Position numbers and translations under genes: made by a program | Source: Rhodothermus sp. | Lineage (GTDB): Bacteria; Bacteroidota; Rhodothermia; Rhodothermales; Rhodothermaceae | Length of the DNA stretch: 41,078 nt | Assembly (NCBI GenBank): GCA_026989375.1 | Contig: JALSJJ010000229.1 | Location: 1 to 41,078, forward strand | Reading direction: 5' to 3' | The notes under the pieces: model-generated | Database searches by the model: none | Told to the model about the DNA's origin: nothing | The model's input: the letters and a program-made list of their open reading frames with translations, nothing else | Shown here: in pieces, positions 5,340 to 17,501 of the stretch | Position numbering within the stretch: the stretch's first letter is position 1 | How the letters are laid out: each line of letters starts with the position of its first letter

Positions 5340-7016
5340 TCAGGCTGACTCCAGCTCCTCGGCCTGTAGAACACGCGGGTAGCGAATCTGCTCCACAAGC
5401 GTCTGCACTTTCTTTGGTGGAGGCGGAGTGCGGAGCGATACCAGAATCGTTACAATGAAGTTCAAAATCATGCCGATCGTGCCCACGCCCTGCGCATTAA
5501 TGCCCAGGAAGCTGCTCAGGATCGGCTCTTCGAGCCCCAGTACGCGGTCGGCTCGCATGAGCACAATCAGCGTAAACGTAAAGATCAGGCCGGTCAGCAT
5601 GCCGGCGATCGCACCTTCCTTGGTGCACCGCTTCCAAAACACCCCCAGCACAATGATCGGGAAGAAGCTGGAGCAGGCCAGTCCGAAGGCAAAAGCCACC
5701 ACCTCAGCCACAAAGCCTGGTGGGAAGATGCCCAGCAGGCCGGCGATGACGACCCCGATAAAGATCATCACCCGGGCCACGGTCAGCTTCACATGGTCAG
5801 GCGCGCTCGGATTAATGATCTGCCCGTAGATGTCGTGTGCCATGGCCGAGCCGATCACCAGCAGCAACCCCGATGCCGTCGAAAGCGCCGCCGCCAGCCC
5901 ACCGGCCGCCACCAGCCCGACCACCCAGGCCGACAGGTTGGCAATCTCGGGAGTAGCCAGCACGATGATGTCGCGGTCGATCGTGCTGAGCAATGCGGCA
6001 GCCGTCATACCTTCACTCCATTCGCTCGCACGAATCAGGCCCGTCTGTGCCCAGTTCTGGACCCAGCTCAGATCAAGCATGCCCGTCGGCCCCAGCTCGC
6101 TGAAGGCATTCAGGATGTAGTAGCGAGCGAACATGGCCACGGCTGGTGCCGTCAGATACAGCAGGCCGATGAAAAACAGCGCCCAGAAGGCTGACCACCG
6201 TGCATCCACCACACGACGTACGGTATAGAATCGTACGATCACGTGGGGCAACCCTGCCGTACCCGTCATCAGCGCAAGAGTCACGAAAAAGACATTCAGG
6301 AGGTCCCAGCTACCCTTAAAGGGTTGGCTGTAAAAATTGCCTACCAGCTCATACTGAAGTTGATCTAACTGGGGAAGTACTTTTCCTAAGGCCAGTTGTG
6401 GCAGGGGGATGCCCGTCAAGGTGTACGCAATAGCAAAGGCGGGAATCAGGTAGGCGATGATCAGCACAGTGTACTGGGCTACCTGTGTCCAGGTGATGCC
6501 CTTCATGCCCCCCAGCACGGCGTAGAGCGAGACGATGGCCATACCAATGATCACGCCCCAGACAATGTCCACCTGCAGAAAGCGACTGAAGACCACGCCT
6601 ACGCCGCGCATCTGTCCGGCTACGTAGGTAAACGAGACGAACAGCGCGGCAATCGCTGCCACCACACGTGCAGTGTTGGAATAGTAACGTTCCCCTACGA
6701 AGTCGGGCACCGTAAACTTGCCAAATTTGCGCAGGAAGGGCGCCAGCAGCACGGCGAGCAACACATAGCCGCCGGTCCATCCCATCAGATAGACAGCCCC
6801 GTCGTAGCCCATGAAGGAAATCAGTCCGGCCATTGAGATAAAGCTGGCCGCACTCATCCAGTCGGCGGCCACAGCCGCGCCGTTGGCGATGCTCGGAATG
6901 CCCTGGCCGGCCACGTAAAAACCGGCCGTATCCTTTACGCGACTCCAGATGGCGATCCCGATGTAGACAGCGAACGTAATCGCCACCCAGAAGAAAGTCC
7001 AACCGATAATACTCAT
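5340..7016 (-). CDS. Sodium:solute symporter, probable acetate (monocarboxylate) permease
   Basis: This 558-residue SSS-family (SLC5) transporter has about 13 hydrophobic helices, the usual number for ActP-type acetate permeases. Family signatures include VAADWMSAASFISMAGLISF (about 50-69) and ASGLLLVIGSAMAHDIYG in the middle. It should couple inward Na+ movement to uptake of acetate or a similar short carboxylate across the inner membrane. The substrate is inferred from context: acs, an outer-membrane barrel and a DUF4212 small subunit precede it on the same strand, and a CrbS-like regulator lies upstream. DUF4212 sits 35 bp upstream and a terminator follows directly, so this is the last gene of the operon. 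An AGAGG-like site precedes the ATG at 7016. Confidence 0.88.
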   Translation of the reverse strand: MSIIGWTFFWVAITFAVYIGIAIWSRVKDTAGFYVAGQGIPSIANGAAVAADWMSAASFISMAGLISFMGYDGAVYLMGWTGGYVLLAVLLAPFLRKFGKFTVPDFVGERYYSNTARVVAAIAALFVSFTYVAGQMRGVGVVFSRFLQVDIVWGVIIGMAIVSLYAVLGGMKGITWTQVAQYTVLIIAYLIPAFAIAYTLTGIPLPQLALGKVLPQLDQLQYELVGNFYSQPFKGSWDLLNVFFVTLALMTGTAGLPHVIVRFYTVRRVVDARWSAFWALFFIGLLYLTAPAVAMFARYYILNAFSELGPTGMLDLSWVQNWAQTGLIRASEWSEGMTAAALLSTIDRDIIVLATPEIANLSAWVVGLVAAGGLAAALSTASGLLLVIGSAMAHDIYGQIINPSAPDHVKLTVARVMIFIGVVIAGLLGIFPPGFVAEVVAFAFGLACSSFFPIIVLGVFWKRCTKEGAIAGMLTGLIFTFTLIVLMRADRVLGLEEPILSSFLGINAQGVGTIGMILNFIVTILVSLRTPPPPKKVQTLVEQIRYPRVLQAEELESA

Positions 7017-7051: not shown

Positions 7052-7342
7052 TCAATGCGCCTGTGAAGGTGGCGTTGTCGTGCCTGCATCTTCTTCGACA
7101 CCTGCTGCCCGGTCCAGCTTGCCCATCATAATGGCATAGGCCAGAATCAGCAGGATGAAGATCATGATGCTGCCCTGCTGGGCCATCCAGAACCCCATCG
7201 GGACGCCCGCTATCTTGAGCGTGTTAAGGGGTTCGACGAGAAAGATGCTGAGCACATACCCGACGATAAACCAGATGACCAGCAGCAAGGCCGTGCGCTT
7301 TCGCACCTCGCGCCAGTACGTTTTGCGATCCATTTGCTCCAT
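7052..7342 (-). CDS. DUF4212 small membrane subunit of the sodium/solute symporter
   Basis: This 96-residue protein matches the DUF4212 family ('putative solute:sodium symporter small subunit'), which almost always sits directly before an SSS symporter gene. It has a basic N-terminus (KTYWREVRKRT) and two membrane helices at about 17-36 and 54-72, joined by a loop with the family-like EPLNTLKIAGVPMGFWMAQQ. The C-terminal tail is soluble. It probably assembles with the next gene's permease, though its exact role in the family is not established. A strong GGAGGAAG Shine-Dalgarno sequence precedes the ATG at 7342. The gene lies 21 bp after the barrel gene and 35 bp before the permease. Confidence 0.9.
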   Translation of the reverse strand: MEQMDRKTYWREVRKRTALLLVIWFIVGYVLSIFLVEPLNTLKIAGVPMGFWMAQQGSIMIFILLILAYAIMMGKLDRAAGVEEDAGTTTPPSQAH

Positions 7343-7363: not shown

Positions 7364-8593
7364 TTAGAAAAACAGAAACACGGTGAAATTACCTCGGATG
7401 TTGGTGGCGGTCTCTGTATCCCCGACCGGTTTGTAGCGATCGTCGAAGCGGCTGGCATAGACAGCCGAGGTCACTTCCAGCTCAAAAGCAAAGCGAACGG
7501 GGCCGTGGTTCAGGTTCAGCCGTGGCGCCAGCCGCCAGAGTTGCTTAATATTGGGGCCTCGAACGGCCGTGCCGATGACGGTGCCCTCCAGGTCACTACC
7601 GGCACCCTGGTTGACCAGGTAGCCGACAAAAAGCCCAGGAGCTACCCGGCCAGCACCATCAATATCTATCCAGCCCGAAAGCACCTGGAGCGGTTTAAAA
7701 GCGGCCGCGTAGTAGTCGTTTTCTCGGCCAGCTGCCGGCGCGTAGACGTAGCCACCTGTCATCAGATGGTCGGTTAGATCCCCCCCGTAGGTTACCTTAC
7801 CTCGCAGGGTCACCCCTTTACCGGCCAGCGTGAAGTATCCCTGCACAGCCAAGGCAAAAAAACGATCCCCGGTGGCAACGGGCCGCAGCGACTTCAGGTA
7901 GGCGCCTGCTCCCACCATACTACCGCCCTGACTGAAAAGCTGTAGATGCGTGTGGAGAGCCGGCAACGCTGCCATCTGTTGCTGTTTGATTCCGGAAACC
8001 CCGTTGAAGCTGATATCCTTAAAGGCATCGCGCTGCCAGGCCAGCGCTCCGATGAACCGAACATGCTGCCCTTTCAGGGTAACCCGCATTTGCGGCTGGC
8101 GAGCATACGGCTGAAATGGCGCACCAGTGGTGGTCGCGACGGTGCGCGGGAAAGCCGCCAGGGTAAACAGCGGCGACCACTCCTGGCCAAAGAGCAACTC
8201 GGCCTGTTCCCATGCCAGGCGTACAAAGCCCCGCCGCAGGCGGAAGGTACTCTCAAGCCCATTGTTGGGCCCGAAGAAGTCCGCCTCAAAATACCCGGTT
8301 ACCTGGGCTCCCAGCGCCTGCGGCAGATCGCCGATATTCAGGCGCAGTCGGGAAAAGAATACAAAGGCGCCAAAATTGTCCGTTTCCGTCGCCTCCGATT
8401 TAGGCAGCGGAAACAGAAGGAACTCCCCTTCTCGTGCGGCTACGACCTGTCTTGTGTCGTAAAGATACTCGACCTTGAGAAAGCCGCTGAGCCTAAACGA
8501 TTGCGCCCACAGTGTCAAGGGTGTAGCCAGCAGCAACAGCAGTAGGCCGAAACCACGGCCTCGACCTGGCGTACGATGTAGTGTGTGCCTCAT
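7364..8593 (-). CDS. Outer-membrane beta-barrel porin-like protein of the acetate operon
   Basis: A signal peptide (hydrophobic LLLLLLATPLTLWAQ, predicted cut near residue 31) is followed by alternating amphipathic strands from about FRLSGFLKVEYLYDT to the C-terminal strand GNFTVFLFF, which ends in Phe as barrel proteins commonly do. No TonB box or plug domain is visible, so a passive channel is likelier than a TonB-dependent receptor. It lies between acs and the DUF4212/symporter pair on the same strand, which suggests it admits acetate or other small carboxylates across the outer membrane; that substrate is inference. An AGGAGGTGA Shine-Dalgarno sequence stands directly before the ATG at 8593. 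The leader contains two copies of a 10-bp palindrome (8656-8689). Confidence 0.75.
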   Translation of the reverse strand: MRHTLHRTPGRGRGFGLLLLLLATPLTLWAQSFRLSGFLKVEYLYDTRQVVAAREGEFLLFPLPKSEATETDNFGAFVFFSRLRLNIGDLPQALGAQVTGYFEADFFGPNNGLESTFRLRRGFVRLAWEQAELLFGQEWSPLFTLAAFPRTVATTTGAPFQPYARQPQMRVTLKGQHVRFIGALAWQRDAFKDISFNGVSGIKQQQMAALPALHTHLQLFSQGGSMVGAGAYLKSLRPVATGDRFFALAVQGYFTLAGKGVTLRGKVTYGGDLTDHLMTGGYVYAPAAGRENDYYAAAFKPLQVLSGWIDIDGAGRVAPGLFVGYLVNQGAGSDLEGTVIGTAVRGPNIKQLWRLAPRLNLNHGPVRFAFELEVTSAVYASRFDDRYKPVGDTETATNIRGNFTVFLFF

Positions 8594-8771: not shown

Positions 8772-10757
8772 TCAACGGTTGAGTCGGTTCTGCACCAGCT
8801 CTTCCACCACCGACGGATCCGCCAACGTCGAGGTATCGCCCAGATCCTTGTACTCGTTGGCCGCAATTTTGCGCAGAATACGACGCATGATTTTCCCGGA
8901 GCGCGTCTTAGGAAGCGCCGGGGTAAACTGCAGCAGGTCGATCGTGAAAATCGGTCCGAGCACGCTCCGCACGTGCTGGATCAGCTCCTTACGGAGCTGA
9001 TCGCTGGGCTCATAGCCTGCCTTCAGCGTCACAAAGGCGTAGATCCCCTGCCCTTTGATTTCGTGCGGATAACCCACGACGGCCGCTTCAGCCACCGCTG
9101 CATGCAGCACCAGGGCACTTTCAATCTCAGCCGTGCCCAGTCGGTGGCCAGATACGTTGATGACATCATCCACGCGTCCCACAATCCAGTAGTAGCCGTC
9201 CTCGTCCCGACGCGCTCCATCGCCCGTAAAGTACTTGCCCGGGAAGCGCGTAAAATAGGTCTCTACAAAGCGATCATGCGCTTTGTAGACCGTCCGCATC
9301 TGTCCGGGCCACGAGTCGAGAATGACCAGCATGCCGTCGGCCGAACCTTCCAGAATGTTGCCATCGTTGTCCACAATAGCTGGCCGCACGCCAAAGAACG
9401 GCAACGTCGCCGAGCCCGGCTTGAGCGGCGTGGCTCCCGGCAACGGCGTGATCATGATGCCCCCCGTTTCTGTCTGCCACCAAGTGTCCACAATCGGGCA
9501 GCGCTCTTCACCTACCACACGATAATACCAGAGCCAGGCCTCGGGATTGATCGGTTCACCCACTGTGCCCAGCAACCGCAGCGACTTTCGGCTTGTTTGC
9601 TTTACCCACGCATCTCCTTCGCGCATGAGCGCCCGGATGGCCGTCGGTGAAGTGTACAGGATGTTTACCTGATACTTGTCCACCACCTGCCAGATGCGCG
9701 ACGGGTCCGGGTAAGTCGGCGTCCCCTCAAAGAGTACCTCGGTCACCCCATTGGCCAGCGGTCCATAGACGATATAACTGTGACCCGTTATCCAACCGAT
9801 ATCCGCTGCGCACCAGTAAACGTCCCCCTCGTGATAGTCGAAGACGAGCTGGTGAGTCAGCGAGGTATACACCAGATAGCCGCCGGTTGTATGCACTACC
9901 CCTTTGGGCTTGCCCGTTGAGCCCGAGGTATAGAGGAAAAAGAGCGGATCTTCAGCATCCATCACCTCAGGCGGGCACTCAGAGGCGACCGTCTGGATCT
10001 CTTCATGATACCAGCGATCTCGTCCCTCTACCCACGGAATGTCACCACCTGTGCGGCGTACCACCAGCACGGTCTTCACATCGGGACAGCGCTCCAGCGC
10101 CTTGTCGGCATTGCGCTTAAGCGGCACGCGACGTCCAGCACGCAGCCCTTCGTCGGCCGTGATCAGGTACGTCGCTTCGCCATCGAGGATACGGTCGGCC
10201 AGCGAGTCGGGCGAAAAACCGGCAAAGACCACCGAATGGATGGCCCCGATCCGTGCGCAGGCCAGCATGGCATAGATCGCTTCCGGGATCATGGGCAAAT
10301 AGATGGTTACCCGATCGCCCTTCTTGACTCCGTGCTTTTTAAGCACATTGGCCAACCGGCAGACCTCCTCATAGAGCTGGCGATACGTGATGGCCTTGCC
10401 CTCTTCATTCGGATCGTCCGGCTCCCAGTAGAAGGCTACCTGATCGGCCCGTTTCTCCAGGTGCCGGTCAATGCAGTTATAGGCGGCATTCAGTTTCCCT
10501 CCCTCAAACCAGCGGATATAGAGGTTCGAGGGATCGAAAGAGGTGTTTTTGACGGTATGAAACGGCTCAAACCAAGTAATGCGCTGCGCCTGCTCGCGCC
10601 AGAAGCCTTCCGGATCCTGGATGGAGCGCTCGTACATTTCCCGATATTGCTCCATCGAGCTGATGAAAGCCTGCTTGCGAAACGCTTCCGGCGGTTGAAA
10701 AACCAGGCCACGCCCCGAATAGGCCGCGGTCGCATTGATCGATTCCTGAAGACCCAT
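8772..10757 (-). CDS. acs: Acetyl-CoA synthetase, AMP-forming
   Basis: This 661-residue protein has the usual length and motifs of cytoplasmic acetyl-CoA synthetase, which makes acetyl-CoA from acetate, CoA and ATP through acetyl-AMP. Visible are the N-terminal ACAS segment ([20 protein letters not shown]), the phosphate loop [15 protein letters not shown], the substrate-pocket stretch [11 protein letters not shown], the hinge region [21 protein letters not shown], and the C-terminal [11 protein letters not shown]. Its Lys622 is the residue reversibly acetylated in well-studied homologues. The AAGGGGAG Shine-Dalgarno sequence supports the ATG at 10757. It heads the run acs-barrel-DUF4212-symporter and lies directly downstream of the CrbS-like regulatory operon, with its own promoter region at 10758-10916. 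Confidence 0.97.
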
Positions 10758-10773
10758 GGCTCCCCTTGGTTAA

Positions 10774-10808
10774 TTATTCCTTTCAAAGAATAAGTTGTCG
10801 CTTATTCT
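10774..10808 (-). promoter_or_regulatory. Overlapping TTATTC/GAATAA inverted repeats in the acs leader
   Basis: Two alternative inverted repeats share a central arm. TTATTC (10774-10779) can pair with GAATAA (10788-10793), while AGAATAAG (10787-10794) pairs perfectly with CTTATTCT (10801-10808) across a 6-nt spacer. They lie 17-51 nt upstream of the acs ATG, downstream of the predicted promoter. They could act as mutually exclusive RNA hairpins near the ribosome site or as operators. Confidence 0.55.
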
Positions 10809-10848
10809 GCTCTACCTCATTCCTTCCTCAGTCAAATGGTTAATTTTA

Positions 10849-10877
10849 GTTATAAAAAAATTTCACGAGAGATGCAA
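10849..10877 (-). promoter_or_regulatory. Predicted acs promoter
   Basis: On the minus strand TTGCAT (10872-10877) and TATAAC (10849-10854) are separated by exactly 17 bp containing a T-rich run. Transcription would start about 85 nt before the acs ATG, giving a leader that holds the TTATTC/GAATAA repeats. Confidence 0.55.
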
Positions 10878-10889
10878 GAGGCTCTTAAA

Positions 10890-10907
10890 TATTCCTTTAT
10901 TGGAATA
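10890..10907. promoter_or_regulatory. Inverted repeat upstream of the acs promoter, candidate activator site
   Basis: TATTCC (10890-10895) and GGAATA (10902-10907) form a 6-bp inverted repeat with a 6-bp spacer, centred about 21 bp upstream of the predicted -35 element. That is a usual place for an activator. The half-site resembles the TTATTC arms in the acs leader, so one regulator could bind both. Confidence 0.45.
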
Positions 10908-10916
10908 ATCAGAGAA

Positions 10917-11864
10917 TCACCTGGCTGGTATTACCAGACGCAACCGGTGGCCGTCGGCATCGCACTGAACCCACAGATCGGCCTCATGCCAGGCCAGCAC
11001 TTCTGCCAGTGCTAATGAAAGGTGTTGTCCTTTTAGCGGGAGCGTCTGCGCCAGCCACCGTTGCAATCGGTCCGGTTGCAAACGCTGTCCCTGCCATTGC
11101 ACGTCAATCCATACCAGATGCTCATGTACGGTGGCGGCCAGCCTGATGCCTTTTTCTTTGCGGATAAACGGGCGTAGCTGGCGTCCCAGCCGCTCCCATA
11201 ACTGTCTCCAGAGTTGACGGTCTGCCCGAACAATAGCGGCCGGCTGTTTTTTCTCCACCTGCACCTTCTGAACCTCCTGTGCGAGCGCCGAGGCCATAAG
11301 CTCGAGCAGCTCGGCCACCGGCATGCGTTCCAGCGGCCAGTGTGCCTGCAGGTACCGAGTATAGGTCGCTACCGTCTGCTCTAACAACCGGGTTAGCGCT
11401 TCCGTCTGCTCCAGCAGGATCTGTCGAAACTGCGCAGCCAGATCGGGCGCCATATCGGGGTAGGCCGTCAGCGTTTCAATAGCCGCCCGAATGTTGGCCA
11501 CCGGGCGCCGTAATCCCTCCAATAGCTGCTGTAACATCAGGGGCTGCCAGTCCTTCGTCTGTTCATAAGCCGGCTGCAGTTGCACCACAAAGCCCGCCGT
11601 CGCTTCCAGGGGCCATGCCTGCACCGCCAGCAACTGGCCGGCCTTTCCCCGCACATGACACGTTTCGCTGGTGGGAGGCCAGGGAAGTCCGGGCAACAGC
11701 ACCTGCAGGCTATGCTCGGATCGGTCGGGTTCCACCGGTAGTGCCAGCCACTGCCGGGCTTTCTGATTTGCCCATACTGGCTTTCCTGCTGGATCGCAGA
11801 TGATCAGTCCGGCAGGCAACGCCTCCAGGGCGGCGGCCATCCTGGTTATTTCCAGGGTCTTCAA
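10917..11864 (-). CDS. PAS protein with degenerate histidine-kinase core
   Basis: This 315-residue cytoplasmic protein opens with a PAS-like domain (about 8-96, LEALPAGLIICDPAGKPVWA). A helical segment follows that matches the HisKA pattern around LLEGLRRPVANIRAAIETL, but the phosphoacceptor His of HELRxP is replaced by Glu116 and the next Glu by Gly. The C-terminal third keeps the outline of a HATPase domain, ending in HEADLWVQCDADGHRLRLVI, yet it lacks N, G1 and G2 boxes. It is therefore probably a non-catalytic sensor or adaptor. Its start overlaps the receiver gene's stop as ATGA (11861-11864), so the two are translated together. The C-terminal part resembles the middle of the exonuclease fusion at 15651-17501. 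Confidence 0.7.
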   Translation of the reverse strand: MKTLEITRMAAALEALPAGLIICDPAGKPVWANQKARQWLALPVEPDRSEHSLQVLLPGLPWPPTSETCHVRGKAGQLLAVQAWPLEATAGFVVQLQPAYEQTKDWQPLMLQQLLEGLRRPVANIRAAIETLTAYPDMAPDLAAQFRQILLEQTEALTRLLEQTVATYTRYLQAHWPLERMPVAELLELMASALAQEVQKVQVEKKQPAAIVRADRQLWRQLWERLGRQLRPFIRKEKGIRLAATVHEHLVWIDVQWQGQRLQPDRLQRWLAQTLPLKGQHLSLALAEVLAWHEADLWVQCDADGHRLRLVIPAR

Positions 11865-12259
11865 GGTTGTTCTGTCTGTCCAGATTGGTTCAACAAACGG
11901 CGAACGGTGTCCATCACGTCACGAATGGCAAATGGCTTGACAATGTAAGCATCAGCGCCTACGGCTTTTCCTTTTTCCAGGTCGGTTTCTCGACCGCGGG
12001 CGGTCACCAGTACCACCTTGACCGCACGCCCCTCTGCGCTGCTTTTAAGCTGTTGACATACTTCAAAACCACTGATGCCGGGTAGCATGACGTCGAGCAA
12101 CACCAGGTCAGGCGCTACCTGCTGGCAGACCGTCAGCGCAGCTTCGCCATCTTCCACCACTGCTACCTGATAGCCTTCCTGCTCCATGAGAAAGCGCAAC
12201 GAAAGGGCAATACTGGGTTCGTCTTCCACAATGAGTACGTAGGGCTTCGGGCGCATCAT
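11861..12259 (-). CDS. Receiver-only response regulator (CrbR position)
   Basis: The 132-residue product is a single CheY-like receiver domain. It has the acidic pocket VEDE (11-14), phosphoacceptor Asp56 in LVLLDVMLPGISG, the switch Thr86 in VLVTARG and Lys108 in YIVKPF. Only about 20 residues follow the conserved Lys, so there is no DNA-binding or enzymatic output domain. It sits 6 bp downstream of the CrbS-like kinase gene and overlaps the next gene by ATGA, which makes it the obvious phosphorylation partner of that kinase. In characterised CrbS/CrbR systems the regulator is a LuxR-type DNA-binding protein; here that half is missing. Confidence 0.92.
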   Translation of the reverse strand: MMRPKPYVLIVEDEPSIALSLRFLMEQEGYQVAVVEDGEAALTVCQQVAPDLVLLDVMLPGISGFEVCQQLKSSAEGRAVKVVLVTARGRETDLEKGKAVGADAYIVKPFAIRDVMDTVRRLLNQSGQTEQP

Positions 12260-12265
12260 CGTCTG

Positions 12266-15025
12266 TCAGATATCCAGCCTGGAAGTATCGCGCGTATGTT
12301 TGGGGGCACCGTCAGACTCCGGCAAACGTGGCAGGGTAAACGAAAACGTCGCGCCAGCACCGGGTTCGCTTTCGACCCAGATCCGGCCGTGGTGATGCTG
12401 CACAATGCGCTGCGCAATGGCCAACCCCAGTCCCGTTCCCGGCGGTCGCTTGCCGGTAGTAGTATGTACCTGCCGGAATTTATCAAAAATAGTCGCCTGA
12501 TCTTCTGGAGCAATCCCTGGACCGTTGTCTTCCACATCCACCTGTACCCGATCGGACGCACTCGTCAGGCGAATCGCAATACGACCGTTTTCCGGGGGGC
12601 AGAACTTAACCGCATTCGACAGCAGGTTCAGCAGTACCTGTACCAGCTGATCTCGATCGCCCAGTACATAGCAGGGGGCCTCTGGAACGGAGACCGTCAA
12701 CGCAATGTCGTTGAACTGCACATGTGGTTGAATGGCCTCGACGGCTTCTTCGATCACCTCCTGCATGCGCATGGGCTCCAGGTTCAACTCCACAGCGTCC
12801 GACTCCAGCTTCTGTAACGTCAGCACCTGATTGATTAACCGGCTCAGCCGCTCGGCTTCCTTGATGATAATGCCCAGAAATTCCTGTCGCTGCGCCTCAG
12901 ACAGTCCTGGATTAGCATGCATGATTTCACTGAAGGCCCGGATCGAAGTAAGCGGCGTGCGCAATTCGTGCGTGATCGTTGAAATGAATTCATCCTTGAG
13001 CCGGTCCAGTTCTTTCAAGCGCTCGTTGGCCGCCTGTAGCTCGCGCGTAGCCCGTTCCAGCTCGGCCGATTTGCGCTCCAGCTCATGGCTATAGGCAATA
13101 ACCTGCTGCGTCTCGTCCAGGATGTCCATGACTTCGCGCAGGCTCAGGGGCTCTTCCTTTACCACCGAAGCAATCAGCACCCGGGCCGACGCCGAGCCAA
13201 TGGCGCCGGCCAATAACCGCTCGGCATGTTGCACGACTTGAGCGGTCGCCGTGACGGTATTGGTTCCCGGGGCCAGCACCGACCGCAGCGCTTCATCCGC
13301 CTGCTGCTTGCCCAGAAAACGCCGCAGTAACTGTTGCAGATCGGACACATAGGCGGTCCCGCGCCACGTGGCCTCGCCCGGCCGCTCCGAACGCCGAAAC
13401 ACATCCACAAAGGCCCGAGCCTGCAGCAGTTCTTCTACACGCTGCTGCGTAAACAGGGACACGCCTACGTACAGCCCTGCATTAAAGAGCAGGCTCCAGA
13501 ACAGCGCATGCGAAACTGGATCGAACCCGTCCAGCCCGAACAGCTGATAGGGGCGCAACCAGCTAATTCCCCAGGGCCCCTTTTCGATAAAAGACACTGG
13601 CAGCAACCCGGCATCGACCAGCGACGGCAGCGGTAGCGTATAGCCCCAGATCAGAAAACCGGCCAATAGACCGCAGAGGGCACCCACTCGCGTTCCACGC
13701 CGCCAGTACATGCCCCCCAGCAAAGCTGGCGCAAACTGGGCCACCGCAGCAAACGAAATCAACCCGATCGATACCAGTGCATAAGCGTGGGCAATGGCAT
13801 GGAAGTAAAGATAGCTCAGCACCAGCACCAGCACGATCCCGCCACGGCGGATACCCAGCAGCAATCCCGTCAGTCGTCCGCGCTGCGCCAGCCGCAGCCA
13901 TTGGATGCGCAACAGAATCGGCATGATCAGGTCGTTGCTGATCATGGTGCTGAGAGCCACGGTGGCCACAATCACCATGCTGGTAGCCGCCGAGAATCCG
14001 CCGATAAAAGCCAGCAGAGCCAGAAGCTCCTGCCCGTGCGCCAGTGGTAGTGCCAGCACAAACGTGTCGGCGTCGACCTGTCCCCCCGGAAAGGCCATGA
14101 GTCCGGCCAGCGCAATAGGAAGCACAAACAGGTTGATTAACCATAAATACAACGGAAACAGCCAGATTGCCTTACGCAGGTGACGTTCATCTACGTTTTC
14201 CACCACGGCTACCTGAAACTGACGGGGCAGAAATAAAATGGCCAACATGGCCAGCAACGTCATCCAGAACCACTGACCATACGCGCCCGGCCCCAGCGCC
14301 CCTTCCATGGTGAGCAACCGCCGAAACTCTGGCCGAACCAGTGCTTGCCCGAACAGATCCGCCGGACCGTCATACAGACCAAAAGTGACGAATAATCCAA
14401 CCGCTATGAATGCTGGCAACTTGACCAAGGATTCAAAAGCAATGGCCGCCACAAGCCCTTCATGACGCTCAGTGGCATCCAGATGCCGCGTTCCGAAGAG
14501 AATGGAAAACAGCGCCAGCGCCAGGGTCACGTACAGGGCTGTATCGTCCAACAAATGCTCTGGCGAGCCCAGCAGCGGCTGCCCGCTCAGCACCTGGAAA
14601 CTGATCGAGATGGCTTTGAGCTGCAAGGCAATATAAGGTACACCGCCCGTTACGGCGATGATGGTCACCAGTGCAGCCAGCCCACTGCTTTTGCCATAGC
14701 GCGAAGCTATAAAGTCAGCAATTGAGGTGATACGATAAACCTTGCTGATGCGGATCATTTTTCGCAGCACCATCCACCAGAGTACGGCTGCCAGCGTGGG
14801 TCCCAGGTAGATGGGCAGATAGCCCACGCCACTGCTGGCTGCACGGCCTACGCTCCCGTAAAAGGTCCACGCCGTGCAGTAGACAGCCAGCGAAAGCGCG
14901 TAAATGTACGGGCTACTGATGATGCTGCGTCCCTGCTCGGCCCGCCGATCGCCATACATCGCAATGGCGAACAGCAGTCCGATGTACAGCAGCGCGATCA
15001 GAAAGATAATCCCACCCTGCAGCAT
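12266..15025 (-). CDS. CrbS-like hybrid: SSS transporter domain, STAC domain and histidine kinase
   Basis: Residues 1 to about 530 form a 12-13-helix sodium:solute symporter domain (SLC5 type). A STAC-like linker follows at about 555-622, then a coiled coil (about 640-675). The HisKA domain carries His686 in STITHELRTPLTSIRAFSE, and an intact HATPase has LLNLLSNAVKF, DNGPGIAP and GTGLGLAIAQRI. No PAS domain is evident, unlike many CrbS/CbrA proteins. In Vibrio and Pseudomonas CrbS-CrbR controls acs and acetate use, and the acs/symporter operon lies directly downstream here. The protein probably senses acetate, or its transport, at the inner membrane and phosphorylates the receiver encoded next. 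The ATG at 15025 begins 3 bp after the small membrane gene. Confidence 0.9.
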   Translation of the reverse strand: MLQGGIIFLIALLYIGLLFAIAMYGDRRAEQGRSIISSPYIYALSLAVYCTAWTFYGSVGRAASSGVGYLPIYLGPTLAAVLWWMVLRKMIRISKVYRITSIADFIASRYGKSSGLAALVTIIAVTGGVPYIALQLKAISISFQVLSGQPLLGSPEHLLDDTALYVTLALALFSILFGTRHLDATERHEGLVAAIAFESLVKLPAFIAVGLFVTFGLYDGPADLFGQALVRPEFRRLLTMEGALGPGAYGQWFWMTLLAMLAILFLPRQFQVAVVENVDERHLRKAIWLFPLYLWLINLFVLPIALAGLMAFPGGQVDADTFVLALPLAHGQELLALLAFIGGFSAATSMVIVATVALSTMISNDLIMPILLRIQWLRLAQRGRLTGLLLGIRRGGIVLVLVLSYLYFHAIAHAYALVSIGLISFAAVAQFAPALLGGMYWRRGTRVGALCGLLAGFLIWGYTLPLPSLVDAGLLPVSFIEKGPWGISWLRPYQLFGLDGFDPVSHALFWSLLFNAGLYVGVSLFTQQRVEELLQARAFVDVFRRSERPGEATWRGTAYVSDLQQLLRRFLGKQQADEALRSVLAPGTNTVTATAQVVQHAERLLAGAIGSASARVLIASVVKEEPLSLREVMDILDETQQVIAYSHELERKSAELERATRELQAANERLKELDRLKDEFISTITHELRTPLTSIRAFSEIMHANPGLSEAQRQEFLGIIIKEAERLSRLINQVLTLQKLESDAVELNLEPMRMQEVIEEAVEAIQPHVQFNDIALTVSVPEAPCYVLGDRDQLVQVLLNLLSNAVKFCPPENGRIAIRLTSASDRVQVDVEDNGPGIAPEDQATIFDKFRQVHTTTGKRPPGTGLGLAIAQRIVQHHHGRIWVESEPGAGATFSFTLPRLPESDGAPKHTRDTSRLDI

Positions 15026-15028
15026 GAC

Positions 15029-15235
15029 TCAGGGATTGTCTTCAGGGGGAGACGACCGACGCCCTTCCATTAACCAGATGAGCAGTCCGATCACCAGCGC
15101 CCACACCCCGTACAGATACACGTACAGCACAGGCAGCCCCAGTACCAGGTGCTCCCGACTGAAAAGCGACAACAGGGGAAAATTCATCAGCAACAGGGCC
15201 ATCGCAAAGAGGGCCGCCAGGCGTGCGCGCGTCAT
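15029..15235 (-). CDS. Small two-helix membrane protein before the CrbS-like kinase
   Basis: This 68-residue protein has two hydrophobic helices (about 5-22 and 31-56) and a short charged tail. Its start overlaps the ArsR-type gene as ATGA (15232-15235) and it ends 3 bp before the CrbS-like gene. The layout resembles small subunits such as DUF3311 and DUF485 that accompany SSS transporters, so it may assemble with the transporter half of the kinase. The family assignment is tentative, but the tight coupling on both sides makes it a real gene. Confidence 0.75.
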   Translation of the reverse strand: MTRARLAALFAMALLLMNFPLLSLFSREHLVLGLPVLYVYLYGVWALVIGLLIWLMEGRRSSPPEDNP

Positions 15236-15582
15236 GGTTGCTTCAATGATCCATCTGTTTCAGCCTCCAGGCTTCGGCACAACAACAAAAACAGGCCAGC
15301 CAGCGAAGGATCAGCCAGGCGATAGCGCACATGTACACCTTCTCGACGGCGTTCCACAAGTCCTTCACGGGCCAGCTGCCCCAGATGCTTGCTCACGTTA
15401 GGTTGTCGAATGCCCAGCGCATCGACGATTTCCTGCACGCTCAGCTCGCCTCGGGTGCGCAACAGGTTCAGCAAACGCAATCGCACCGGATCACCCAGCA
15501 CCCGTAGCCGGCGCGCTGCAGCTTCTAACAAGGTTTCAGGTACCAGTGGAGCCGGTTCCACTGCATGAACCCGGGTTGTCAT
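15232..15582 (-). CDS. ArsR-type winged-helix transcriptional regulator
   Basis: This 116-residue winged-helix protein has the ArsR pattern LRVLGDPVRLRLLNLLRTRG, then recognition helix IRQPNVSKHLGQLAREGLVE and the wing RREGVHVRYRLAD. The classic metal-binding motif ELCVCDL reads ELSVQEI, and only one Cys remains (in LLLLCRSLE), so metal or disulfide sensing by the known routes is unlikely. I choose the ATG at 15582 because GGAG stands 7 nt upstream; the frame could start at 15636. It heads the operon with the small membrane protein, CrbS-like kinase, receiver and PAS protein. A palindrome over the predicted -35 of its own promoter suggests autoregulation. Confidence 0.88.
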   Translation of the reverse strand: MTTRVHAVEPAPLVPETLLEAAARRLRVLGDPVRLRLLNLLRTRGELSVQEIVDALGIRQPNVSKHLGQLAREGLVERRREGVHVRYRLADPSLAGLFLLLCRSLEAETDGSLKQP

Positions 15583-15607
15583 TCCAATCTCCGACAATTT
15601 CGTTACT

Positions 15608-15643
15608 ATCTTACAGCGGAACGCGTTGAAAATCAAATATTCA
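15608..15643. promoter_or_regulatory. Divergent control region: arsR promoter with ArsR-like operator
   Basis: On the minus strand TTGATT (15631-15636) and TAAGAT (15608-15613) with a 17-bp spacer make a good promoter for the arsR-crbS operon. A 17-bp imperfect palindrome, TGAAAATCAAATATTCA (15627-15643), overlaps its -35 element. It resembles the AT-rich sites of ArsR-family repressors and ends 7 bp before the exonuclease start codon, so one bound dimer could affect both directions. Confidence 0.55.
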
Positions 15644-15650
15644 GAACCTC

Positions 15651-17501
15651 ATGCCGCTTTCCGGACACTTCTGGAAAACGTATGCCGCGTTGGCCTTGCT
15701 GGGGCTGTTGCTACTGGCTATGCCCAACCTGATCTGGTGGCTGAGCGCTTCACCTTTAGAACGTGCCTGGTTGCTTGCCCGCTATCCGTTTCTGCTGGTC
15801 CTGATTGTGCTGGTGCTGGGCGGTATCTATGCCCTCTGGTACCACGTCTACCAGACCCATGTACGTCCCATAGAACAGCTTACGGACGCACTCCATCAGG
15901 TGATGGCTGGCCATCCACTACCGCCTCTGCCCAGTGTCACTACCCAGGCACTTCGCAAACTGCAGGAAGCCATTACGGCCGTGGTATCCCCTCAGCGTCT
16001 TCAGCATACAGCCACCTCGGTTGGTCCCCTGCACCGCGAACGCGACCTGCTGGCTACCCTGCTCGGTGAACTTCCAGAGGCCGTACTGGTATGTCGGACA
16101 TCTGGCCAGATTCTCCTATACAACGAGGCCGCCCGCCGCCTGCTGGAGCCCCCGGACCATCCGGGTGCCATCGGACTGGGACGCTCTATCTTTCACAGTC
16201 TGGATCGTGAGCTGATCATCTTTGCACTGGATGAACTGGCCTACCAGCTACGCCATCAGCAATCCCATCCGGAAGTCCACGTCGCAACCGTCCTGTCTTC
16301 AGGGCAATTTGTTCGTGTACGCATGACGCTGATCCAGGAAGAAAACGATCCCTTGGAAGGATTCATTTTGATCCTGTCCCCCCTGGAACCGACACCCAGC
16401 CCCCTGGAAAACATTCGCAGTGCCGATCTGCTTCAGGCATTGCGGACGCGGCTGGCACAAGACGGGGTTACGCTTCAGCTTGAGCATGCGAGTGGTGCGC
16501 TCTGGATTCAAGCACGCCTGCCAGACGCTTTTGAGGTGCTCTACCGCCTGGCCTATCAGCTACACCAGGCAACGGCCTGCCCTCATCTGCAGGCCCGCAC
16601 TGCCCGGGCAAACGGACGCGTACATCTGTGGCTTCAGCCATGCGACAAACACCCGGCAGCCTCCGAACCGCTGGCTTCGTACATACAGGAAGCCTCCCTC
16701 CAGCGACTCCTTCAAGACCATCAGGCCAGCCTACAGGTAGAAGCAGACACCCTGCATCTGTCGTTCCCGGCTTCACCGCCTCATACAGGGGCCGCCCGAG
16801 CGTTCCTGTCCGGCCCATTTGTTCGTAAACGTCCAATTTACGTAGATCTCACCTTACTTGAAACGTTCGCGACAACCACGCCCCTTGATGACCGCCCGCT
16901 GGACCACCTGATCTATACGGTTTTCGACACAGAAACAACCGGCCTGCATCCCGAACGGGGCGACGAGCTCATCGCAATCGGTGCCGTGCGCATTGTGGGC
17001 GGCCGCATCCGCCCCGAAGAAACCTTTGACCAGTTAATCAACCCACACCGTCCCCTCTCTCTGGATTCGGTACGTGTGCATGGCATCCAACCCATTCTGT
17101 TACAGGATAAGCCGAGCATTGAAGCCGTGCTGCCCCGCTTTCACCGCTTCGCCGAACATACGGTCCTGGTCGGGCACAACGTGGCCTTCGATCTGAAGTT
17201 TATTCGTCAGAAAGAAAAAGCACTGGGCTTACGATTTGAACAGCCCGTGCTCGACACCATGCTACTGGCGGCGGTTGTCGATCCGGAACGCTCGCACTAT
17301 GGACTGGATGAGCTGGCAGCAGCCTTTGGGATTGAGCCTATCGGACGGCATTCGGCCCTGGGAGATGCGCTCATTACGGCGGAACTGTTTCTGCGTCTAT
17401 TGCCGCTGCTGAAGCGGCGTGGGATCTGCACCTTGCGTCAGGCCCGCGAGGCGGCCCAGCAGACCCGTCTGGCCCACATGCATTACGAACGTATCTCCTG
17501 A
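15651..17501 (+). CDS. Membrane-anchored PAS / degenerate kinase / DEDDh exonuclease fusion
   Basis: Two membrane helices (about 10-30 and 44-64) and a HAMP-like stretch (about 66-90) precede a PAS domain (about 128-245, LGELPEAVLVCRTSGQILLY). A middle segment (about 256-375) has the outline of a HATPase domain without its catalytic boxes. The C-terminus (about 420-595) is a complete DnaQ-like 3'-5' exonuclease of DEDDh type: Asp426 and Glu428 in FDTETTG, Asp514 in HNVAFDLKF, His567 and Asp572 in RHSALGDALITAELF. It should degrade single-stranded or RNA ends at the inner face of the membrane; the substrate is unknown. Related exonucleases occur in acetate-permease/CrbS clusters of Gammaproteobacteria. 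It is transcribed divergently from the arsR-crbS operon, 68 bp away. Confidence 0.85.
   Translation: MPLSGHFWKTYAALALLGLLLLAMPNLIWWLSASPLERAWLLARYPFLLVLIVLVLGGIYALWYHVYQTHVRPIEQLTDALHQVMAGHPLPPLPSVTTQALRKLQEAITAVVSPQRLQHTATSVGPLHRERDLLATLLGELPEAVLVCRTSGQILLYNEAARRLLEPPDHPGAIGLGRSIFHSLDRELIIFALDELAYQLRHQQSHPEVHVATVLSSGQFVRVRMTLIQEENDPLEGFILILSPLEPTPSPLENIRSADLLQALRTRLAQDGVTLQLEHASGALWIQARLPDAFEVLYRLAYQLHQATACPHLQARTARANGRVHLWLQPCDKHPAASEPLASYIQEASLQRLLQDHQASLQVEADTLHLSFPASPPHTGAARAFLSGPFVRKRPIYVDLTLLETFATTTPLDDRPLDHLIYTVFDTETTGLHPERGDELIAIGAVRIVGGRIRPEETFDQLINPHRPLSLDSVRVHGIQPILLQDKPSIEAVLPRFHRFAEHTVLVGHNVAFDLKFIRQKEKALGLRFEQPVLDTMLLAAVVDPERSHYGLDELAAAFGIEPIGRHSALGDALITAELFLRLLPLLKRRGICTLRQAREAAQQTRLAHMHYERIS

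Follow-up and report, generated by a model that had tools for sequence, protein, structure and literature searches.

How does a transporter-like sensor kinase pass on its signal when the response regulator encoded beside it is a receiver without any output domain? This question is raised by a locus of Rhodothermus sp. in which genes for such a kinase and receiver lie upstream of the acetyl-CoA synthetase gene acs. The DNA studied, referred to as the window, is the whole 41,078-nucleotide contig G000:C229, which is part of a 3.07-Mb genome. To our knowledge, DNA-binding regulators serve all SLC5-STAC kinases that have been studied to date (CrbS, CbrA and RpuS). A preliminary description of the window viewed the locus as a CrbS-like, rewired acetate switch, whose output would run via the ArsR-type protein of the operon, via the PAS protein encoded next to the receiver, or via an unlinked regulator.

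On the minus strand, the genes follow each other in the order arsR, a 68-aa peptide gene, SLC5-STAC kinase, receiver and PASp and then, after an AT-rich gap of 159 bp, acs, a porin-like gene, a DUF4212 gene and a gene for a VC_2705-family symporter. The exonuclease gene EXO is divergent from the arsR operon. The coordinates and the minus strand originally given for kinase, receiver, PAS protein, ArsR and acs are right; the peptide gene (15029-15235) was absent from that gene list, and the EXO gene (15651-17501) had been left out of the related genes. The features are as follows.

15651..17501, plus strand: EXO, 616 aa, with a membrane part (2 helices), a PAS domain, a degenerate kinase-like region and a DEDDh/DnaQ-type exonuclease (RNase_T, E 3e-38)
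15232..15582, minus strand: ArsR/SmtB-type winged-helix regulator, 116 aa (HTH_5, E 3e-13; NF033788)
15029..15235, minus strand: CbrX-like two-helix membrane peptide, 68 aa (sequence; alignment A2; weak PDB match)
12266..15025, minus strand: SLC5-STAC-DHp-CA sensor kinase, 919 aa, phospho-acceptor H686 (Pfam SLC5, HisKA, HATPase)
11861..12259, minus strand: stand-alone receiver, 132 aa, phospho-acceptor D56 (Pfam Response_reg; alignment of 95 receivers)
10917..11864, minus strand: PASp, 315 aa, TTG start, with PAS, pseudo-DHp (E116 at the His position) and degenerate CA
10890..10907: putative operator 1, TATTCY-N6-RGAATA, upstream of the acs promoter-like block
10849..10877, minus strand: promoter-like block TTGCAT-N17-TATAAC between both operators (conservation in five genomes)
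10775..10792: putative operator 2, TATTCY-N6-RGAATA, 17 bases before the acs start codon
8772..10757, minus strand: acs, acetyl-CoA synthetase (Pfam ACAS_N, AMP-binding, AMP-binding_C)
7364..8593, minus strand: outer-membrane porin-like protein, judged from its sequence and conserved beside acs in the genus; no family in Pfam or NCBIfam
7052..7342, minus strand: DUF4212 small symporter subunit (PF13937, TIGR03647)
5340..7016, minus strand: VC_2705-family sodium/solute symporter, acetate-symporter-like (TIGR03648, 748 bits)

For comparison, 296 genomes of the phylum were searched for the kinase, of which 32 were positive, and 26 neighbourhoods were taken. A further 80 named loci came from GTDB genomes, many of which are metagenome bins; they represent Beta-, Gamma-, Alpha- and deltaproteobacteria, bins labelled as Chloroflexi, and Pontibacter and Spirosoma, among others. 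Genes were called on all 106 loci. The arrangement of kinase and stand-alone receiver recurs in about 90 loci of several phyla and is thus more than chance.

The 106 loci contain 94 receivers of the window receiver's family, and D13, D56 and K108 are invariant across the 95 aligned sequences. In the window, Response_reg covers residues 8-119 of 132 and Pfam finds no domain after it, so that the view of a response regulator without an output domain is borne out; it was not correct, though, that the protein ends right after the conserved Lys. It extends 25 residues past this Lys, which is the normal length of a full receiver, and 93 of the 94 relatives likewise stop 16-30 residues after the KP motif, while the remaining one (L121) runs into masked bases. 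A truncated or decayed response regulator is ruled out by the full length and by the catalytic residues that are invariant across phyla. Hence, the output-less stand-alone receiver is a general rule of this kinase family and not a local oddity. Its gene overlaps that of the PAS protein by TTGA (the latter with a TTG start), an overlap kept in five genomes, and not by ATGA as first stated, which is instead the overlap of arsR and the peptide gene.

The presence of a STAC domain in the kinase is supported by the match of the family profile to the SLC5-STAC structure of CbrA (10ed_A; profile positions 5-619, E 7e-106) and by an IG-x-x-SA/LGPASA version of the STAC motif LGPx(x)A (PMC4834066). Neither a PAS domain nor a receiver was found in this protein by Pfam, and the chain ends after HATPase_c. 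Of the SSS-STAC-kinase hybrid proposed earlier, the SLC5-STAC, HisKA and HATPase parts are retained and the label of a hybrid is dropped. The H-box is intact in 104 of the 106 kinases of the related loci. Directly upstream of the kinase, 94 of these loci encode a two-helix peptide. In the window, the start of the peptide gene overlaps the arsR stop, and the gene lies 3 bases before the kinase start. Pfam and NCBIfam assign no family to the 68-aa product, and its best match among 177,635 PDB sequences is CbrX (chain 10ed_X), a weak one (E 0.17). The CbrX peptide binds CbrA according to cryo-EM (2026 preprint, PMC13022988).

The relationship of this kinase to CrbS is clarified by Pseudomonas aestuarii, which has three SLC5-STAC kinases together, namely CrbS, CbrA and a kinase of the window type. 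CrbS (1158 aa) carries PAS_7 at 642-756 and Response_reg at 1040-1150, CbrA has a PAS domain and CbrX upstream, and the gene of the window-type kinase adjoins those of EXO and of a receiver that stands alone. To this last kinase, the one in the window is 61% identical over the whole length; to P. aestuarii CrbS, the values are 43% for SLC5-STAC and 24% for the kinase part. A CrbS ortholog is ruled out by the architecture and by this genome, where CrbS and CbrA are present in addition. The reading as a CrbS-like, rewired switch has to be given up accordingly: the kinase is a paralogue in its own right, found alongside CrbS in one genome, and a stand-alone receiver is the rule of its family.

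In the related loci, the gene after the receiver was taken as the next recognised gene on the same strand within 250 bp. This gene is EXO in 42 of 94 cases, an acs-type synthetase in 16, PASp in nine and DUF294/CBS in six, so that a pseudokinase of the PASp or EXO type directly follows the receiver in 51/94. About 11 loci (e.g. L090, L093, L107 and L128) keep the pair of receiver and EXO (or PASp) with the kinase elsewhere or on the opposite strand. In the loci compared from Bacteroidota proper, kinase and receiver are present and no PAS-pseudokinase protein was found; the receiver must therefore have another target there, and the EXO pseudokinase is ruled out as a universal output.

The surroundings of the module vary. 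In Bacteroidota loci (L062, L067, L072 and others, including L067 11548-13083), genes for two acyl-CoA synthetases come after it, which differ in type and one of which is probably propionate-type; in L070 and L099, both apparently form one open frame of about 1285 aa. An MFS transporter often precedes the module in these loci, in place of the SSF symporter. In L056-L058 (family f3), a kinase-receiver-PASp unit stands after PTS enzyme I- and HPr-like genes and not with acs, which suggests that the substrate is a different one or that the unit is connected with the control of sugar use. Some Betaproteobacteria (L081, L083, L087, L095 and L103) encode OmpR-type response regulators near the module. 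A DUF294-CBS-cNMP nucleotidyltransferase, elsewhere a frequent neighbour, is unlinked in the genome studied here (G000 C246:483-2417, L178) and lies beside an SNF-family sodium symporter gene.

PASp itself is a degenerate histidine kinase (PAS-pseudoDHp-pseudoCA) without the phospho-acceptor His. It is homologous to the EXO family over 318 columns (hhalign 100%, E 4e-51), corresponding to the PAS-kinase-like part of EXO without its membrane and nuclease parts, and it also aligns with DHp-CA of the real kinase (hhalign 98%, E 8e-14). The phospho-acceptor position is occupied by E or D in all nine aligned PASp sequences (E116 in the window); in EXO, E is found in 18 of the 26 sequences that have the DHp segment, and H in none. 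Structures matched by the AlphaFold model of PASp (pLDDT 86) include those of PAS-kinases, HK853-RR468 kinase-receiver complexes and DivL (4q20), and Foldseek relates the AF2 model of EXO to DnaQ exonucleases and PAS-kinases. All catalytic residues of the nuclease (D426, E428, D514, H567 and D572) are invariant in the 29 sequences of the EXO alignment A3. In the same alignment, the DHp columns are gapped in EXO of the window genus, and PASp carries exactly those columns. The ancestral pseudokinase-exonuclease hence appears to be split between the PASp and EXO genes in this genus. From gene order and structure, the likely target of the receiver is a kinase-like pseudokinase, which is often fused to a nuclease. 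The PAS protein thus seems to be the best-supported candidate partner of the receiver, by virtue of its type being encoded directly after it in so many relatives. Two of the three routes proposed at first thus gain support, for different tasks: the PAS protein as this partner, and ArsR as the candidate for acs control.

The system is present in five genomes of the genus and missing from two others. The latter two also lack PASp and a PAS-type EXO, and both keep acs with 92-95% identity. In one of them, G006 (L242, C15), acs (95%) directly follows parA at the same chromosomal site as window positions 8772-17501, and EXO, arsR, peptide, kinase, receiver and PASp are absent as one block; no porin or symporter gene of the window type follows acs. 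It follows that acs is kept without the signalling unit and that EXO belongs with this unit. The five genes singled out initially cohere in part, in that kinase and receiver recur together and the block is gained or lost as a whole in the genus; ArsR was found in only 6 of the 106 related loci, the window aside, and PASp stands next to just nine of the 94 receivers.

ArsR scores 87.4 bits against NF033788 (cut-off 55) and is, by Pfam, the sole DNA-binding protein encoded in the operon. Among the loci compared, it was found in the five genomes of the genus and in two others of the order; tblastn located arsR in G002 and G005. Each of the five genomes that have the system carries exactly two palindromes TATTCY-N6-RGAATA at acs, 115-116 bp or eleven helical turns apart, and the pair is found at no other promoter of these genomes. 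Upstream of acs in the two sister genomes without the system, no such palindrome was detected. By composition, about 0.2 matches are expected per genome; none of 200,000 shuffles of the acs gap yielded two palindromes, and a reversed-pattern control of the operator search gave zero matches. Just two further matches exist: G000 has one within an apparently coding stretch (C57), and G003 has one at C7:36859 (L225). The latter stands directly upstream of another arsR-family gene, which is divergent from an MFS transporter gene and has a metal-ATPase-like gene after it. For SqrR, an ArsR-family regulator, the site deduced is ATTC-N8-GAAT (PMC9774250).

Bracketed by the two palindromes is the TTGCAT-N17-TATAAC block conserved in the five genomes, which was not picked by a consensus promoter scan and is assigned as a promoter solely from its conservation. 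Because the twin palindromes bracket the acs promoter and the pair occurs at no other promoter in the five genomes, the operon's ArsR is the best candidate to bind them and to regulate acs, as judged from the DNA sequence. Two observations speak against this. The palindrome is absent from the arsR-exo intergenic region, where the promoter of arsR itself would lie. In G035, which has acs and an ArsR that is 60% identical, TATTCY-N6-RGAATA is absent at acs, although the sequence there allows a palindrome ATTAC-N6-GTAAT with this geometry. ArsR is ruled out as a universal output, being confined to the five genomes of the genus and two of the order. Of the suggested route via ArsR, the putative control of acs is thus kept and a general role in output is not.

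Taken together, the best explanation, to which we give an even chance as a whole, is that the window locus belongs to a third, widespread SLC5-STAC lineage beside CrbS/R and CbrA/B and distinct from both, in which the receiver docks in trans on a pseudokinase, with acs under the control of ArsR. The transporter-like kinase and the CbrX-like peptide would sense acetate or a related carboxylate, and the kinase may then phosphorylate the stand-alone receiver on D56, as the intact catalytic residues suggest. The receiver could find its output in trans by docking on the degenerate histidine kinase as DivK~P does on DivL; the DHp helices of this pseudokinase would keep a receiver-binding shape without the phospho-acceptor His. 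In most relatives outside Bacteroidota, the putative target is fused to a membrane-anchored DEDDh exonuclease and encoded right after the receiver. In the window genus, PASp would keep the pseudo-DHp, coupled to the receiver gene, and EXO the membrane helices, PAS and nuclease. Transcription of acs would most likely be set by the operon's ArsR at the two operators where, as regards the direction of regulation, we infer that it is perhaps a looping repressor. A bolder extension, which we consider rather unlikely, is that the phosphorylated receiver directly gates the membrane-anchored pseudokinase-exonuclease and thereby connects a carboxylate-sensing kinase to RNA or DNA/nucleotide turnover, instead of or besides transcription, with gate (PASp) and nuclease (EXO) split in this genus.

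Conceivably, albeit with somewhat less than an even chance, the operon serves two parallel inputs. ArsR alone, with its own ligand, would repress acs via the twin operators, and the kinase, receiver and pseudokinase would control something else, such as RNA/nucleotide turnover by EXO or transport; no acetate switch would then run from the receiver to acs. The confinement of DNA binding in the operon to ArsR, the specificity of the operators for acs and the absence of ArsR from most relatives are in line with this scenario. In P. putida, pp_0354 (CBS-protein) and pp_0353 (RNase_T) are targets of MxtR/ErdR, and pp_0353 has been tied to pyruvate metabolism rather than growth on acetate (PMC9927547), which also favours separate inputs. 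This gene may link such an exonuclease to carboxylate use, in a different system and with a likeness to EXO by RNase_T domain type. However, arsR overlaps the peptide gene, which in turn abuts the kinase gene, and all come and go as a block, suggesting joint action.

The remaining alternatives concern the partners of the kinase. PASp or EXO could be a trans regulator of the kinase, forming a hetero-dimer and providing a PAS input, which in CrbS and CbrA is part of the kinase itself, with the receiver as a phosphate sink or feedback element. We regard this as unlikely: the kinase does lack the PAS domain that CrbS and CbrA carry, PASp and EXO do have PAS and a DHp-like dimerisation region similar to that of the kinase, and the in-cis receiver of V. 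cholerae CrbS is dispensable for growth on acetate (PMC5436829), yet the pseudokinase gene mostly adjoins that of the receiver and stays with it when the kinase moves. Still more improbable is the unlinked regulator mentioned at the outset, a LuxR/NarL-type equivalent of CrbR that would be the true output and render the local receiver accessory. CrbR and RpuR are LuxR-type regulators, and the window genome has LuxR-type response regulators as well; however, all four orthogroups of this type are shared with a sister genome that lacks the kinase, and none is linked to the locus or tracks the system.

On the preferred reading, that is, a third lineage with a receiver acting on a pseudokinase, several consequences are of interest. 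The lineage is widespread over several phyla without a transcription factor as partner, and the conserved gene order of receiver, pseudokinase and exonuclease makes the output route directly testable. If the receiver controls the pseudokinase, central metabolism would join the control of the cell cycle as a field in which the logic of DivK-DivL is used. From the acs promoter with its twin operators follows a concrete prediction of where ArsR binds. Both the SLC5-STAC class and the individual domains are already known; no description of a receiver-only, pseudokinase-linked SLC5-STAC module was found in the open literature searched, and this lineage is apparently undescribed.

Compared with known systems, the locus combines traits of several. 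With CrbS/CrbR (MxtR/ErdR), it shares the SLC5-STAC kinase and a genomic or regulatory connection to acs and to genes for an actP-like symporter and for CBS and RNase_T proteins. In contrast to CrbS, the window kinase has no PAS between STAC and DHp and no C-terminal receiver, and instead of a LuxR-type DNA-binding regulator there is a receiver-only protein, along with a CbrX-like peptide. CbrX-CbrA/CbrB likewise has a helix-hairpin peptide gene directly before that of an SLC5-STAC kinase without a receiver, whereas CbrA contains PAS, and its signal goes to CbrB, a sigma-54 activator, rather than to a receiver-only regulator. The predicted ArsR branch recalls ArsR/SmtB proteins with SqrR/BigR/YgaV-type operators in the winged-helix fold and in the ATTC-N8-GAAT palindromes at the likely target promoter; it differs in the single Cys of the window ArsR, with none in the recognition region, and in the location within an acetate operon. 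The closest working precedent for the receiver branch is DivK-DivL of Caulobacter, in which the PAS-bearing pseudokinase DivL reads phosphorylated DivK (PMC4211667). Both systems pair a single-domain receiver that has an intact site with a PAS-containing pseudo-histidine kinase lacking the phospho-acceptor His. Here, however, this position is E/D instead of Tyr, the pseudokinase usually forms one protein with membrane helices and a DEDDh exonuclease, the kinase has a transporter-like sensor, and the binding of receiver to pseudokinase is predicted.
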